Part shown: positions 10,163 to 53,909 of the stretch, piece by piece | Numbering within the stretch: the first letter of the stretch is position 1 | How the letters are laid out: each line of letters starts with the position of its first letter | DNA from: Betaproteobacteria bacterium | GTDB lineage: Bacteria > Pseudomonadota > Gammaproteobacteria > Burkholderiales > SG8-39 | Reading direction: 5' to 3' | Assembly: GCA_947482825.1 (NCBI GenBank) | Contig: CANKMT010000004.1 | Coordinates: 1-64,000 of the forward strand | Length of the DNA: 64,000 bases | Made by a program: the position numbers and the translations under genes | The notes under the pieces: model-generated | Told to the model about the DNA's origin: nothing | Seen by the model: the letters and a program-made list of their open reading frames with translations, nothing else | Databases searched by the model: none

Positions 10163-11073
10163 GCGCTTCCAATGCCTCCTCAACCAACCCGGCCTGGTTC
10201 CCCTCCGAGCCCATTGTCGGCCGCAAGAACATCCGGTGGCCCAACGGGGCGCGGCTCGCGTTCGGCGTTGTGGTCAGCATCGAGCAGTACGAGATGACGC
10301 AGGCCCCCGGCGCGTTCCTGCCGGTCACGCTGCCCGGCGGCATGGGCCGCGGTCCGTACCCGGATTTCCGTTCCTATTCGCTGCGCGAGTACGGCAACCG
10401 CATTGGCGTGTTCCGCGTCATGGAATCCCTTGATCGCCACGGCCTGCGCGCCACCGCCGCGATCGACGCCTCGGTGGCGACGCACAAACCGGTCATCCTG
10501 CGCGAATGCCTCAAGCGCAATTGGGAGATCGCCGCGCACGGCAATGCGGTCACGCAGGTGATCACCGCCAAGCTCGACGAGGTGGCGGAGCGCGAGCAGA
10601 TCTCGGCGGCGCTCTCAGCGCTGGAGCGCGCGACCGGCAAGCGGCCGCAGGGCTGGCACGGCCCGGAGTACGGCGAATCGGCGCGCACCCCCGGCCTGCT
10701 CGCCGAATTCGGCGTGAAGTACGTCCTCGACTGGCCGAACGACGAACTGCCCTATGCAATGAATACCCCGGCGGGGTCGCTGGTGTCGGTCCCGATGCTG
10801 GTGGATTTCGACGACGTGTTCGCTCACTGGTACCGAAAACTGCCGATGTCGCGTTGGCAAAGCTCGATCGCGGATGCGCTCGACCGGCTGTTGGAAGACG
10901 GCCAGACCCGCCCGCGCATGCTTATCGTCAACCTGCATCCGTGGCTGATCGGGCAGCCGTGGCGGATTTCTTATCTGGATGCGGTGCTGGCGGATTTGAA
11001 GCGGAGAGACGGGGTGTGGTGTGCGACTGCTGGGGAGATTGCGGAGTGCTGGGTGGTGCAGCAGGAGACCTGA
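10159..11073 (+). CDS. Polysaccharide deacetylase family protein 2
   Basis: WPNGARLAFGVVVSIEQYE, AAIDASVATH, WHGPEYGESARTPGLLAEFG; ATGA overlap with gene 1. Confidence 0.8.
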   Translation: MSASNASSTNPAWFPSEPIVGRKNIRWPNGARLAFGVVVSIEQYEMTQAPGAFLPVTLPGGMGRGPYPDFRSYSLREYGNRIGVFRVMESLDRHGLRATAAIDASVATHKPVILRECLKRNWEIAAHGNAVTQVITAKLDEVAEREQISAALSALERATGKRPQGWHGPEYGESARTPGLLAEFGVKYVLDWPNDELPYAMNTPAGSLVSVPMLVDFDDVFAHWYRKLPMSRWQSSIADALDRLLEDGQTRPRMLIVNLHPWLIGQPWRISYLDAVLADLKRRDGVWCATAGEIAECWVVQQET

Positions 11074-11105: not shown

Positions 11106-11175
11106 TCTCCCTATTTTGCGAATTTCCCGCGTTTGCGCGAACGCGCAAACACAAGAAATTCGCAAAATAGGGAGA
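11106..11175. repeat. Nested inverted repeat (21-bp perfect outer stem, 9-bp inner stem, AA centre)
   Basis: TCTCCCTATTTTGCGAATTTC / GAAATTCGCAAAATAGGGAGA enclosing GTTTGCGCG-AA-CGCGCAAAC; between convergent gene ends. Confidence 0.95.
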
Positions 11176-11186
11176 TTGGGTTAAGG

Positions 11187-12143
11187 TCAATTCGCGCGGA
11201 AGCCTGTTTGGGCGACGACTTCCTTCCATCGCTTCCATTCCAGCGCAAGCAGCGCCCCAAAGGCCTCAGGCGTCCCAGGCGTCGGCTCGATGCTCTGGCG
11301 CGCCAGCGTCGCGCGGATTTCGGAGTCCGCAAGTGCCAGGGTGATGTCCGCATTCAGGCGCGCCACGATGTCGCCCGGCATCCCCTTCGGACCCACGATG
11401 CCGAATAGGAACTGCACATCGACGCCGTCCTGTCCCTGCTCGACGAAAGTCGGCACGTTCGGCAGCGTGGACAACCGTTTGGGCCCGGTGACCGCGAGCG
11501 CTTTCAGCGTGCCTGCCTGAACGTGCGGTTGCGGGCCGGGCATGGTGTCGAGCAGAACCTGGATCTCGCCGCCCAACAGGCCCGTGTACGCTGGCCCGCC
11601 GCCCTTGTAGGGCACGTGCACCATGTCGATGCCGGCCGCGCGCTTCAACATCTCGCCGGCAAAGTGGTGAGCGCTGCCCGGGCCGACCGAACCGAAATTC
11701 AGCTTGCCGGGATTCTTCTTCGCGTAATCGACGAATTCGGCAAGCGTCTTTGCCGGCACCGCCTGCGTGACCACCAGCACGTAAGGGCCACGCGCGATCT
11801 CGATGATCGGCGTGAACGACTGCACCGGATCGTAGGCGATGTCCTTGATCGACGCCGGGCCGACGATCAGGTTCGAGAGCACGCCGAACAGCAGCGTATA
11901 GCCGTCCGGCGCGGCGCGCGCGACCGTAGCGGCGCCGATGGTCCCAGCCGCACCCACGCGGTTCTCGACCACGACCGATTGACCGAGGCGCTTGGAGAGG
12001 ACCGCGCCGATCTGGCGCGAGATCGTGTCGGTGGCCGCACCCGGCGGGAAACCGTTCACGAGCGTCACCGGCCGAGTGGGATAGCCTTGTGCGTTCACTC
12101 CGCTGGAAAACAGGCACAGCAGGATTGCGATCCATCGTTTCAT
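11187..12143 (-). CDS. TctC/Bug family solute-binding protein
   Basis: GYPTRPVTLVNGFPPGAATDTISRQ; RVGAAGTIGAATVARAAPDGYTLLFG. Confidence 0.9.
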   Translation of the reverse strand: MKRWIAILLCLFSSGVNAQGYPTRPVTLVNGFPPGAATDTISRQIGAVLSKRLGQSVVVENRVGAAGTIGAATVARAAPDGYTLLFGVLSNLIVGPASIKDIAYDPVQSFTPIIEIARGPYVLVVTQAVPAKTLAEFVDYAKKNPGKLNFGSVGPGSAHHFAGEMLKRAAGIDMVHVPYKGGGPAYTGLLGGEIQVLLDTMPGPQPHVQAGTLKALAVTGPKRLSTLPNVPTFVEQGQDGVDVQFLFGIVGPKGMPGDIVARLNADITLALADSEIRATLARQSIEPTPGTPEAFGALLALEWKRWKEVVAQTGFRAN

Positions 12144-12156
12144 CGCATTACCCCGG

Positions 12157-13905
12157 CTAACTCGAGCAAACCACGTCGAGCACCGCCTGGCGGCGTTCGT
12201 CCCTGACCATGCGAATTGCACGCTCAAGCGCTGCTGGCAGTTCTGCCGAGTCGGTCACGCGCTCGCCGTAGCCGCCCGCGCACTCGACCACTTTTTCGAG
12301 TCGCAGCCGCTGGTCGAAGTAGGTCAGGGGCTCGAGCGTGCGGTTCCGCGCGGCGTGCCCTTGCGGGTAAAGATGCCTGGTGGCTGAACCGACTTCATTC
12401 CATTTCTGGTTGTCGACGATGACCGTGAGGAAAGGCGCGTCCTGCTCGAGCGCCACGTAGTGCGCTGCCACCGGCGCGCAGAACATGTACGAGCCGTCGC
12501 CTTCCACCGCGACGACCAACCGCTCGGGTGCCGCGAGCTTCGCGCCGAGCGCCGCGCCCATGCCCCAGCCGAGCCCTCCTGCCGCGCCCAGAGAAAAGTA
12601 CGAGCCTTCCCGCTCGCTTGTGTAGTGCTGCGGAGCGAACTGCGGTGCTTCGCGGATCAGGATCGCCTCTGCGCCGACCGCCTTGTCCACGCAGTGCGTG
12701 AGCCAGGCGGGATGGATGACCGATTGCTTGCGTGCCGATTCGACCTCTTGTGCGAGCGCCTTGTCTCGCGCGATTCGCGCACTCGCGACTCGTTCGCGGC
12801 GCCCGTCGATCCTTGCGGCAGCGATTTTCTCGTAGGCCGCAGAGGCGAGATCCAGCGCCCGAAGGCTCGCGGCGGCACTGCCGGTGATCCCGAGATCGCA
12901 TTCGAAGCCGCGGATCGGCATGCGTTGGAAGAGCGGATCGACGCCGATGTGAACGACCTTGGCCTCCGCGAGCGGGCGAATCTTGCTGGGAATCCACGGC
13001 ACCGCGCAATCGATCACGATCACGAGGTCTGCATTGGCGAGGAGCGGCGCCGGATCGTAGCCTGCATGCATGGGGTGGCTCGTGGGCAACGAAACGCAGC
13101 GCGGCACGTACTGCACCACCGGGACCGCCATGCGCGCCGCGAGCGAACCCAAAGCCCCCACCGCACTGCGATCGAACCCGGCGCTGGTGGTGATGATCAT
13201 CGGTCGCTCGGCCGCAGCCAGCATCGCAGCCACTCGGGAGATGGCCTCCGGATCCGGATACGGTGCGACCGGATGCGCATGCCGGTCCGCCGGCGAGTAA
13301 GTGAACTTGCCCATCGGGCTCGCCAGCACTTCGCGCGGCAACGTGAGGTAGACCGGCCCTTGGGGCGGCGCGTGCGCGATGTTGAGCGCGCGGTCGACGA
13401 CGGTTTCCAGTTGCGTGCCGTTGCGCAGCTCGTAGTCCCACTTGACCGCCTCGCGCACCATGCCGGCCTGGTCGTACATTTCCTGCGTCCAGTGGATGTG
13501 GATGTTGCGGCCGCCCTCCATGCCGGTCTCGGTGATCGGCGTGCGGCCGGCGGTGAGCAGCATCGGCACGTTGGCCTGCGCGGCATTGAGAAGGCCGCAG
13601 ATGGTGTTCGCGGTGCCGACGTTGACGTGGACCATCACCGCCTGCGCCTGACCGCTGACCATCCAGTGCCCCATCGCCATGCAGACCGCGACGTTCTCGT
13701 GGGGAACCGTGACGGGCTTGGGCACGGGCACCCCGGCCTCGACCGAGCGCACATACCCTTCGATCAGCGGCGCGAAGTCGGTGCCTGCGTTGGCGAAGAG
13801 GTTCTCGATGCCGCGGTCGGCCAACAGGCGCAGGTAGGCCTCGCCGACGGTCGCTGCTTCCACGGTGGTCCCGGCTACCGCAGGTGGAGTGACAGGGCTG
13901 TTCAT
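12157..13905 (-). CDS. Thiamine-pyrophosphate-dependent enzyme (acetolactate synthase-like)
   Basis: PVTVPHENVAVCMAMGHWMVSGQ; AVEGDGSYMFCAP...VIVDNQKWNEV TPP-binding motif. Confidence 0.88.
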   Translation of the reverse strand: MNSPVTPPAVAGTTVEAATVGEAYLRLLADRGIENLFANAGTDFAPLIEGYVRSVEAGVPVPKPVTVPHENVAVCMAMGHWMVSGQAQAVMVHVNVGTANTICGLLNAAQANVPMLLTAGRTPITETGMEGGRNIHIHWTQEMYDQAGMVREAVKWDYELRNGTQLETVVDRALNIAHAPPQGPVYLTLPREVLASPMGKFTYSPADRHAHPVAPYPDPEAISRVAAMLAAAERPMIITTSAGFDRSAVGALGSLAARMAVPVVQYVPRCVSLPTSHPMHAGYDPAPLLANADLVIVIDCAVPWIPSKIRPLAEAKVVHIGVDPLFQRMPIRGFECDLGITGSAAASLRALDLASAAYEKIAAARIDGRRERVASARIARDKALAQEVESARKQSVIHPAWLTHCVDKAVGAEAILIREAPQFAPQHYTSEREGSYFSLGAAGGLGWGMGAALGAKLAAPERLVVAVEGDGSYMFCAPVAAHYVALEQDAPFLTVIVDNQKWNEVGSATRHLYPQGHAARNRTLEPLTYFDQRLRLEKVVECAGGYGERVTDSAELPAALERAIRMVRDERRQAVLDVVCSS

Positions 13906-51934: not shown

Positions 51935-52417
51935 CTACTTCTTCTGCGCAGCCATCTTGTCGTAGAAAGCGACCAGCCTGACCACATCGGCCGCATCCAC
52001 GCGCCCGATCGGCCCCGAGCTGTAGGTTGCCGAGCGCACTTTGCCTTCCGCGTCGATCAGGAACTCGGAAGGCTGGATGAGGCCGCGCCTTTCCTCCCAC
52101 CACGCGCCGATGCTCTCGGCGAGCGAGCGCGTGACGCCGTAGCCGACTGGAAACGACAATTCGGCAGCCACCTCCCTTGCCTTGTCGATGGGGTCGATGC
52201 TCGCGGCAACTACCTTCACGCCAAGCGCATCGAGCTCGGGTTTGAGTTTTTCGAAGCCGACCAACTGCCGGCGACAGTACGGTCACCAGTGACCGCGGTA
52301 GAAGAGGACGACCTTGTAGCGTGCGTCGAGATCTTCTGGAACCTTGAGCTGAGTGCCGTCGACCAGGTCGAAGGTCAGGCTGGGAAAAATGTCACCGGTA
52401 TTGAGCTTGTCGGCCAT
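51935..52417 (-). CDS. Peroxiredoxin-like (AhpC/TSA-like) protein with in-frame UGA at the catalytic Cys position; putative selenoprotein
   Basis: MADKLNTGDIFPSLTFDLVDGTQLKVPEDLDARYKVVLFYRGHW-UGA-PYCRRQLVGFEKLKPELDALGVKVVAASIDPIDKAREVAAEL...DKMAAQKK; same frame on both sides, UGA at 52283-52285. Confidence 0.82.
52256..52285 (-). promoter_or_regulatory. Putative bacterial SECIS element
   Basis: UGA then 16 nt to apical loop AGUUG of a 6-bp stem GCCGGC/GUCGGC (one G-U). Confidence 0.5.
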
Positions 52418-52503
52418 TTGTATCCTTCGGTACAGAAAACGCAGTGTCGCAGAGATTCTTCGCCGGACCGCCAAGGCCGGAACCGTCTCGGCATTGTACC
52501 GAC

Positions 52504-52549
52504 ACCAGAACACGAACTGACAGGACAATCAATATCGGCGCGGACTTTC
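52504..52549 (-). promoter_or_regulatory. Conserved upstream element (copy 2)
   Basis: ACCAGAACACGAACTGACAGGACAATCAATATCGGCGCGGACTTTC; near-copy of 35195-35239. Confidence 0.55.
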
Positions 52550-52599
52550 AAGTACGAAAGTTACAAAATTTGGCACCTATCCGATTTCGACCTCCCCAG

Positions 52600-52666
52600 T
52601 CTCCTCGCTTTGAGCATTTCCATGGTTGCGCGAACGCGCAACCGCGAAATGCTCAAATCGAGGAGA
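52600..52666. repeat. Nested inverted repeat (21-bp outer stem with one mismatch, 9-bp inner stem, AA centre)
   Basis: TCTCCTCGCTTTGAGCATTTC / GAAATGCTCAAATCGAGGAGA enclosing GGTTGCGCG-AA-CGCGCAACC. Confidence 0.95.
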
Positions 52667-52712
52667 TCATGGAACCCCAAAAAAAGATCTGCCCCAAGAA
52701 ACGAAGTCGCAC

Positions 52713-53909
52713 CTACATCGTCGGGTTAACCACTTCCCCACCCAACGCCACCAGCCCCCAGGTCGACATCCCCGCATCCCAGTTGAACCCGATGTGCGCA
52801 CTGGCCGAGTGCGCATCCCGGAACAGCCTCTCCAGCGGGTACTTGGTGTAGATGCCGTTGGCGCCGGCCATCTCGTGCAGCGTATTCACGGCTTCGACCC
52901 CGAGCCTTGCTGCAAGCGCGCAATTGCGCCGGAAGCGCAGCTTGTCCTCCATCGGCGGCATGAGGCCGGCGGCGGCGAACTTCATGCCCTCGAGGCAGTC
53001 GGCATGCTGCGAACCGCGTGCCAGGTCGATCTTCGAGGCGGCCACGCCGACGCGAAGCTGCACGGTCTGGAAGTCGCGCATCTTCATGCCGGTGTAGTTG
53101 GTGCTGCGCTCCTTGACCGATTGGACGGTCATCTCGAGGGCCGCCTGCGCATTGCCGATGATCGCACCCGCCAGGCAACTCGAACCAAGCGCGCCGAGCG
53201 GAATCTGGTAAAGCGGATTCGGGTTTACCTTGGCGCCGGGAAAATCGGCCCGGCCGCGCGCGGTGTACATCGACAGCGCCCGATGGTCGGGCACGAAGAC
53301 TTCCTCGACCTTGACCGACTTGCTCCCCGTTCCGCGCATGCCGAGCGTGCTCCAGTCGTCGATGACCGTGTAGTCCTTGCGCGGCAGGAGGCACATCCGA
53401 TGGTCGACGATCTTGTCGCCGTCCCTGACGATGCAAGCGAGCATGTTCCAGGAGGACGGGTCCACGCCCGAGGAGAAATTCCAGTACCCCGATAGCACGA
53501 TGCCGCCGTCGACCTTCCGCCCCCGCCCCTGCGGGTAGGCGATGCCCGAGGCGATGATCGCGTCGGGGTCGTCGGCCCAGACTTCCTCCTGCGCCTTGGG
53601 GTCGTAAAGGGCCAGCATCCAATGGTGGATCGACAGGTTGCCGACGTTCCAGGCCGTCGATGCGTCGCCCCGCCCGATGATCTCGGGGAGGTCGAACACC
53701 GAGACGAAATCGAGCTCCATGCCGCCCCAGCGCCTGGGCTGAAGGAAACGCAAGAGGCCCGACTCGTGCAGCAGCGCGAGAACCTCCGGCGTCAGCTGCC
53801 TCGCCTGCTCCTGCGCGTCTGCAAGCTCGCGCAATTTCGGGACGAGGGTGTGCGCGCGGCGCGCAGCCTCTTCATAGCCTACGTCGGCAAATCCGCTCCG
53901 GCGATCCAT
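52713..53909 (-). CDS. Acyl-CoA dehydrogenase family/flavin-dependent monooxygenase-like protein
   Basis: LTPEVLALLHESGLLRFLQPRRWGGMELD; WSTLGMRGTGSKSVKVEEVFVPDHRA; C-term FRDAHSASAHIGFNWD. Confidence 0.88.
   Translation of the reverse strand: MDRRSGFADVGYEEAARRAHTLVPKLRELADAQEQARQLTPEVLALLHESGLLRFLQPRRWGGMELDFVSVFDLPEIIGRGDASTAWNVGNLSIHHWMLALYDPKAQEEVWADDPDAIIASGIAYPQGRGRKVDGGIVLSGYWNFSSGVDPSSWNMLACIVRDGDKIVDHRMCLLPRKDYTVIDDWSTLGMRGTGSKSVKVEEVFVPDHRALSMYTARGRADFPGAKVNPNPLYQIPLGALGSSCLAGAIIGNAQAALEMTVQSVKERSTNYTGMKMRDFQTVQLRVGVAASKIDLARGSQHADCLEGMKFAAAGLMPPMEDKLRFRRNCALAARLGVEAVNTLHEMAGANGIYTKYPLERLFRDAHSASAHIGFNWDAGMSTWGLVALGGEVVNPTM

Follow-up and report, generated by a model that had tools for sequence, protein, structure and literature searches.

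Short palindromes scattered between the genes of bacteria have been described in several forms. GTAG REPs and BIMEs, associated with RAYTs, are dispersed extragenic palindromes of lineage-specific sequence that lie by gene 3′ ends and in some cases form inverted pairs (PMC2817692, PMC3733652). CGTC-tagged REPs are extragenic palindromes as well; they have no dedicated transposase and consist of an 8-9 bp stem with an unpaired CGTC tag (PMC3733652). MITEs with a central palindrome are short, non-coding and dispersed, with conserved flanks or body and with empty sites in congeners. A different kind of precedent is the maintenance of hairpins by template switching (quasipalindrome mutation; Monttinen and Loytynoja). 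This model, described for RNA genes, predicts whole-pair compensation without intermediates as well as loop inversions (PMC8794818).

The palindrome reported here, element B, was found in a window of 64,000 nucleotides (the whole stretch of DNA that was analysed) and has something in common with each of these systems. Like GTAG REPs and BIMEs, the repeat to which it belongs is dispersed, extragenic, placed by gene 3′ ends, partly arranged in inverted pairs and lineage-specific in sequence; unlike them, it has no GTAG head, no tyrosine transposase flanked by it, and a near-perfect stem about twice as long. With CGTC REPs it shares the absence of a dedicated transposase, but its stems measure about 18-30 bp and the bases adjoining the stem vary between genera. 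It resembles MITEs in all the traits listed above, but neither a parent transposase nor a target-site duplication could be demonstrated for it. Finally, it shows the whole-pair compensation without intermediates and the loop inversions that the template-switching model predicts. Here, though, the process would act on a repeat that is non-coding and dispersed, is replicated many times and has flanks that can be aligned. We lean towards seeing element B as a copy of a REP/MITE-like extragenic palindromic repeat that is restricted to one lineage, with copying between the arms behind its covariation.

Two palindromes and their neighbouring genes

The whole palindrome of element B, TCTC...GAGA, occupies positions 52600..52666, as judged from reading the sequence, from the pairing of its arms and from a covariance-model match; no strand is assigned to it, to its parts or to element A. 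Its letters run TCTCCTCGCTTTGAGCATTTC-CAT-GGTTGCGCG-AA-CGCGCAACC-GC-GAAATGCTCAAATCGAGGAGA. The left outer arm of 21 nt (52600..52620) is composed of TCTC, N4 and then a TTTG block, and 20 of the 21 positions pair with the right outer arm (52646..52666); the one exception is arm position 9, where C on the left faces T on the right. Enclosed by the arms is an inner hairpin, GGTTGCGCG-AA-CGCGCAACC (52624..52643), within which lies the genus-specific core TTGCGCGAACGCGCAA (52626-52641). Element A, the second copy in the window (11106..11175), is situated between convergent genes with stop codons at 11073 and 11187; it is flanked on one side by a TctC receptor gene (11187..12227, minus strand). As the preliminary description had it, the core TTGCGCGAACGCGCAA is identical in the two elements and their outer arms are equally long, at 21 nt. 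Of the six outer-arm positions at which they differ, five show compensation, and the remaining one, position 9, is the lone mismatch of element B. The window contains two inverted repeats with 21-nt arms, no more than one mismatch and a loop not exceeding 30, and none of 20 first-order Markov resamples contains any, which excludes a chance origin of elements A and B.

The gene context first given for element B was also right. The element lies 46 nt past the stop codon of an acyl-CoA dehydrogenase family gene (52713..53909, minus strand; Pfam Acyl-CoA_dh_2, E 3.2e-29), and on its other side it is upstream of an AhpC/TSA peroxiredoxin gene (51935..52417, minus strand). The frame of the latter is open only if one in-frame TGA is read through. 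This TGA stands in the context FYRGHW-TGA-PYC, at the place of the usual cysteine, and the peroxiredoxin is therefore a selenocysteine candidate.

Two familiar identities were considered for element B and rejected. An intrinsic terminator would consist of a GC-rich hairpin and a T run; there is no terminator-like site in 52400-52800, and the flank consensus has no T run. As for known structured RNAs, nothing in the window matched Rfam 15 at the gathering score, and at relaxed thresholds five element loci produced only sub-threshold, generic hairpin matches, chiefly to miRNA models.

Distribution, anatomy and placement of the repeat

Elements A and B might have been an isolated pair, as the preliminary description allowed. 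Genome-wide collection of copies, using a covariance model built from 12 of them, instead identified 14 loci in the window's own genome (5.06 Mb; E 8.5e-21 to 2.6e-9), so that the family, at about 14 copies in this genome, exceeds the pair A and B. The model also matched in 9 of 60 relatives, which belong to the window's genus or to one of several further genera in its taxonomic family. Species of the window's genus have sharply unequal copy numbers (14 in G000, about 13 in G004, one each in G001 and G003 and none in G002), though some sites are common to them. A search with the simple pattern TCTC-N4-TTTYG ... CRAAA-N4-GAGA found the repeat in 16 of 99 family genomes, with a maximum of 170 copies in G093 (176 under a slightly looser pattern), against 0 matches for the reversed pattern used as control. 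Covariance model and pattern combined, the bearers are 21 genomes of the window's family, own included, with 1 to 176 copies each, the single-match genomes being the least certain. The repeat was absent from 368 other genomes of the class outside the family, and the order outside the family gave one match only, which is non-palindromic and was taken as chance. The named records in which the TTTTGCG sub-type occurs are MAGs that carry the label Betaproteobacteria or Proteobacteria bacterium, plus one Ruminococcus record that yielded no palindrome. Among the genomes searched, the repeat is found in one family of uncultured betaproteobacteria only. A search of open-access text on betaproteobacteria, which is a weak negative, returned no earlier description of it.

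The shared part is a near-perfect palindrome, TCTC-N4-TTTYG...loop...CRAAA-N4-GAGA. In most copies the outer TCTC/GAGA is followed by four free paired positions, the TTTYG/CRAAA block, more paired positions and, innermost, a genus-specific stem and loop. This inner stem reads TTGCGCG..CGCGCAA in the window's genus, to which that core is confined, and GTTGC..GCAAC in G029 and G091-G093; what the other genera have in common is just the outer TCTC-N4-TTTYG stem. The flanks contain a weaker inverted GGTTTTGAANTTCCC motif. The genus g20 has a longer element whose asymmetric flanks can be aligned over about 158 nt (mean column identity 87%), and in G093-like genomes the conserved ends of the element are CCTAAGCCGGACGAGCCGG on the left and CTTGTAAGTGACTAA on the right. 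G029 and G027 often have palindromes in pairs, one inverted with respect to the other at a distance of about 100-150 bp. Stems are near-perfect in every bearing genome, with mismatch rates in the stem/flank survey and in the 161-element context set (see below) being lower bounds, since the finders used for them demand most pairs. Both the left-flank search and the 15-copy g20 set are less biased in this respect. A search seeded with nothing but the left flank gave 70 uncut matches, 62 of which had a stem of at least 17/18 pairs; perfect stems are thus not a search artefact.

The idea that copies always follow gene 3′ ends turned out to be largely, but not strictly, correct. For 161 elements a gene was called on either side. 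Convergent genes enclose 55 of them and genes of the same direction 96, so that 151 adjoin a 3′ end, whereas 10 are located between divergent genes; the gene calls behind these counts come from a simple codon-usage script with rough start positions. Such extragenic placement near gene 3′ ends is as reported for REPs (PMC3733652). At two loci of G093 (L255:4861-4908 and L187:7156-7198) the flanks are kept close together and the hairpin is gone, as if it alone had been deleted.

Lock-step change of the two arms

Covarying stems are routinely read as proof of a selected RNA structure, and the covariation between elements A and B had likewise been taken to show that pairing itself is selected. The covariation persists with more copies aligned and is far beyond chance. 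In the 12-copy alignment, 98.0% of cells pair, compared with 81% after shuffling, and the covariation score is 0.469 vs 0.134 shuffled, a value reached by 0 of 500 shuffles; structures slid along the same alignment score 0.04-0.10. The step from there to selection is not established, because arm copying gives equal covariation.

The way in which the stems change is more telling. The 15 recent g20 copies (14 from G093 and one from G092, collected with a pattern that fixed the TCTC and TTT.G positions only) differ from their consensus at 6.9% of flank sites and 6.7% of arm sites, the flanks acting as an internal rate control. Their arms carry 19 two-sided paired changes and 6 one-sided ones, where independent arms changing at that rate predict 0.5 and 42. 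These changes amount to 10 distinct two-sided and 6 distinct one-sided states; two-sided counts include changes inherited from a common ancestor. Among the most similar distinct stems (G093, G029, G027, G092), single-position differences are two-sided in 37 cases and one-sided in 7. Within the window's genus, four orthologous sites show 28 changed positions, all 28 of them two-sided and 16 of them whole-pair transversions; three of the six comparisons use one site and are not fully independent. At site I of G004, the left inner arm CTTGATCG is the exact complement of the right arm CGATCAAG; the related G004 copies L072 and L082 have TTTCTTCG opposite CGATCAAG. This is the pattern expected if the right arm had been copied onto the left, a direction that we infer. 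In addition, loops are present in both orientations relative to the flanks, and loop inversion is a footprint reported for template switching (PMC8794818).

Could the same stems have been shaped by RNA? A hairpin at mRNA 3′ ends that terminates transcription or blocks 3′-exonucleases, with each stem change rescued by a second independent mutation, would agree with the location of the elements after genes, with the strong covariation and with the retention of the element at orthologous sites while the flanks drift. However, the arms keep pace with the flanks in their rate of change, whole-pair transversions are common and mismatches on the transcript strand show no G-U preference (7 G-U vs 6 A-C), nor is there a T run after the stem of element B. 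Moreover, the long asymmetric form is found in either orientation with respect to transcription (41 vs 25, a weak bias). Small numbers lie behind these RNA negatives. Given the flank-like rate of arm change, the whole-pair transversions and the lack of G-U preference, arm copying fits better than slow compensatory selection on RNA, and we regard the latter as unlikely. This does not leave selection without a part: the TCTC and TTT blocks are strictly kept across copies, which shows that selection acts too. Probably the stems owe their form to arm-to-arm copying in combination with selection on the hairpin, although strong selection could alternatively purge one-sided intermediates.

A little less probable than an RNA hairpin, in our estimate, is the replacement of whole palindromes by gene conversion or repeated insertion, which would swap them between sites with neither arm copying nor local selection. 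Genomes with many copies, close relatives one pair apart and sites empty in one congener and filled in another are all in keeping with such swapping, but the origin of new single-pair states would still have to be explained. It is also hard to square with the orthologous sites of the window's genus, which hold a compensated element amid drifted flanks, and with G001 and G003, where there is one model match each and no donor is seen.

If copying between the arms is indeed the cause, a repeat with very strong covariation, features fitting arm-to-arm DNA copying and little that is RNA-specific would be a clear caution for covariation tests. It would also provide a natural system for measuring template switching and represent a new bacterial palindromic repeat type with no known mobiliser.

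Mobility and possible origin

Empty sites, together with dispersed similar copies, point to mobility in the past. Several sites are filled in one g20 species and empty in another. For example, genes that abut in G092 (L232:11120-11240) have about 350 bp between them in G093 (L257:2575-2800). The case for mobility is one of presence/absence between species, the congeners being too diverged for a target-site duplication to be read out. Among the loci examined, no autonomous copy of the element turned up.

What might have moved the element is less apparent. Extragenic palindromes at gene 3′ ends, the inverted pairs of G029 and G027 and Y1 transposases in many of the genomes recall a true RAYT-mobilised REP of the GTAG superfamily, albeit one with an odd stem. 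Yet the palindrome ends without a GTAG head in the flank tables, and of 27 Y1_Tnp loci in 19 genomes (incomplete drafts) none is flanked by the palindrome. Furthermore, G030 has elements but nothing that matches Y1, and G010, G013 and G035 lack both. Since no tyrosine transposase is flanked by the repeat, we classify it as REP/MITE-like and consider a RAYT-associated REP very improbable. A double-stranded operator for a dimeric regulator, suggested by the dyad symmetry and the conserved TCTC and TTT blocks, is hardly credible, as the four free positions vary in identity yet are complementary between the arms, a match not required by a dimeric protein that reads duplex DNA, and divergent promoter regions are avoided (10/161).

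With arm copying as the preferred reading, the history of the repeat might be as follows. The ancestor would have been a miniature mobile element, roughly 110-170 bp long and with the TCTC-N4-TTTYG palindrome at its centre, that spread through the genomes of one betaproteobacterial family and piled up in the gaps after genes. During replication the palindrome would fold as a hairpin or cruciform, and a template switch would copy one arm onto the other, rewriting a mutation in one arm into its partner; as an outcome, the stem would stay near-perfect while its letters drift. Purifying selection would preserve TCTC/GAGA at the outer ends as well as the TTT block, the most likely reason being that some mobilising or host protein recognises the hairpin; an added role as a hairpin at the transcript 3′ end is possible. 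We see about an even chance that the repeat, which carries no tag and has no RAYT, constitutes a new type of extragenic palindrome (TCTC-N4-TTTYG) of one uncultured betaproteobacterial family with stems evolving mainly by arm-to-arm copying; its many copies would then form a natural record of bacterial template switching.

Some copies in G093 are associated with further inserted DNA. The insert of about 350 bp at L257:2575-2800 contains the element and a second dispersed-looking repeat with GTCATTCCCGCGAAAGCGGGAATC, and at L252:13503-13714 the palindrome is interrupted by an insert starting GGGGTCAGAGTAACATTTC.
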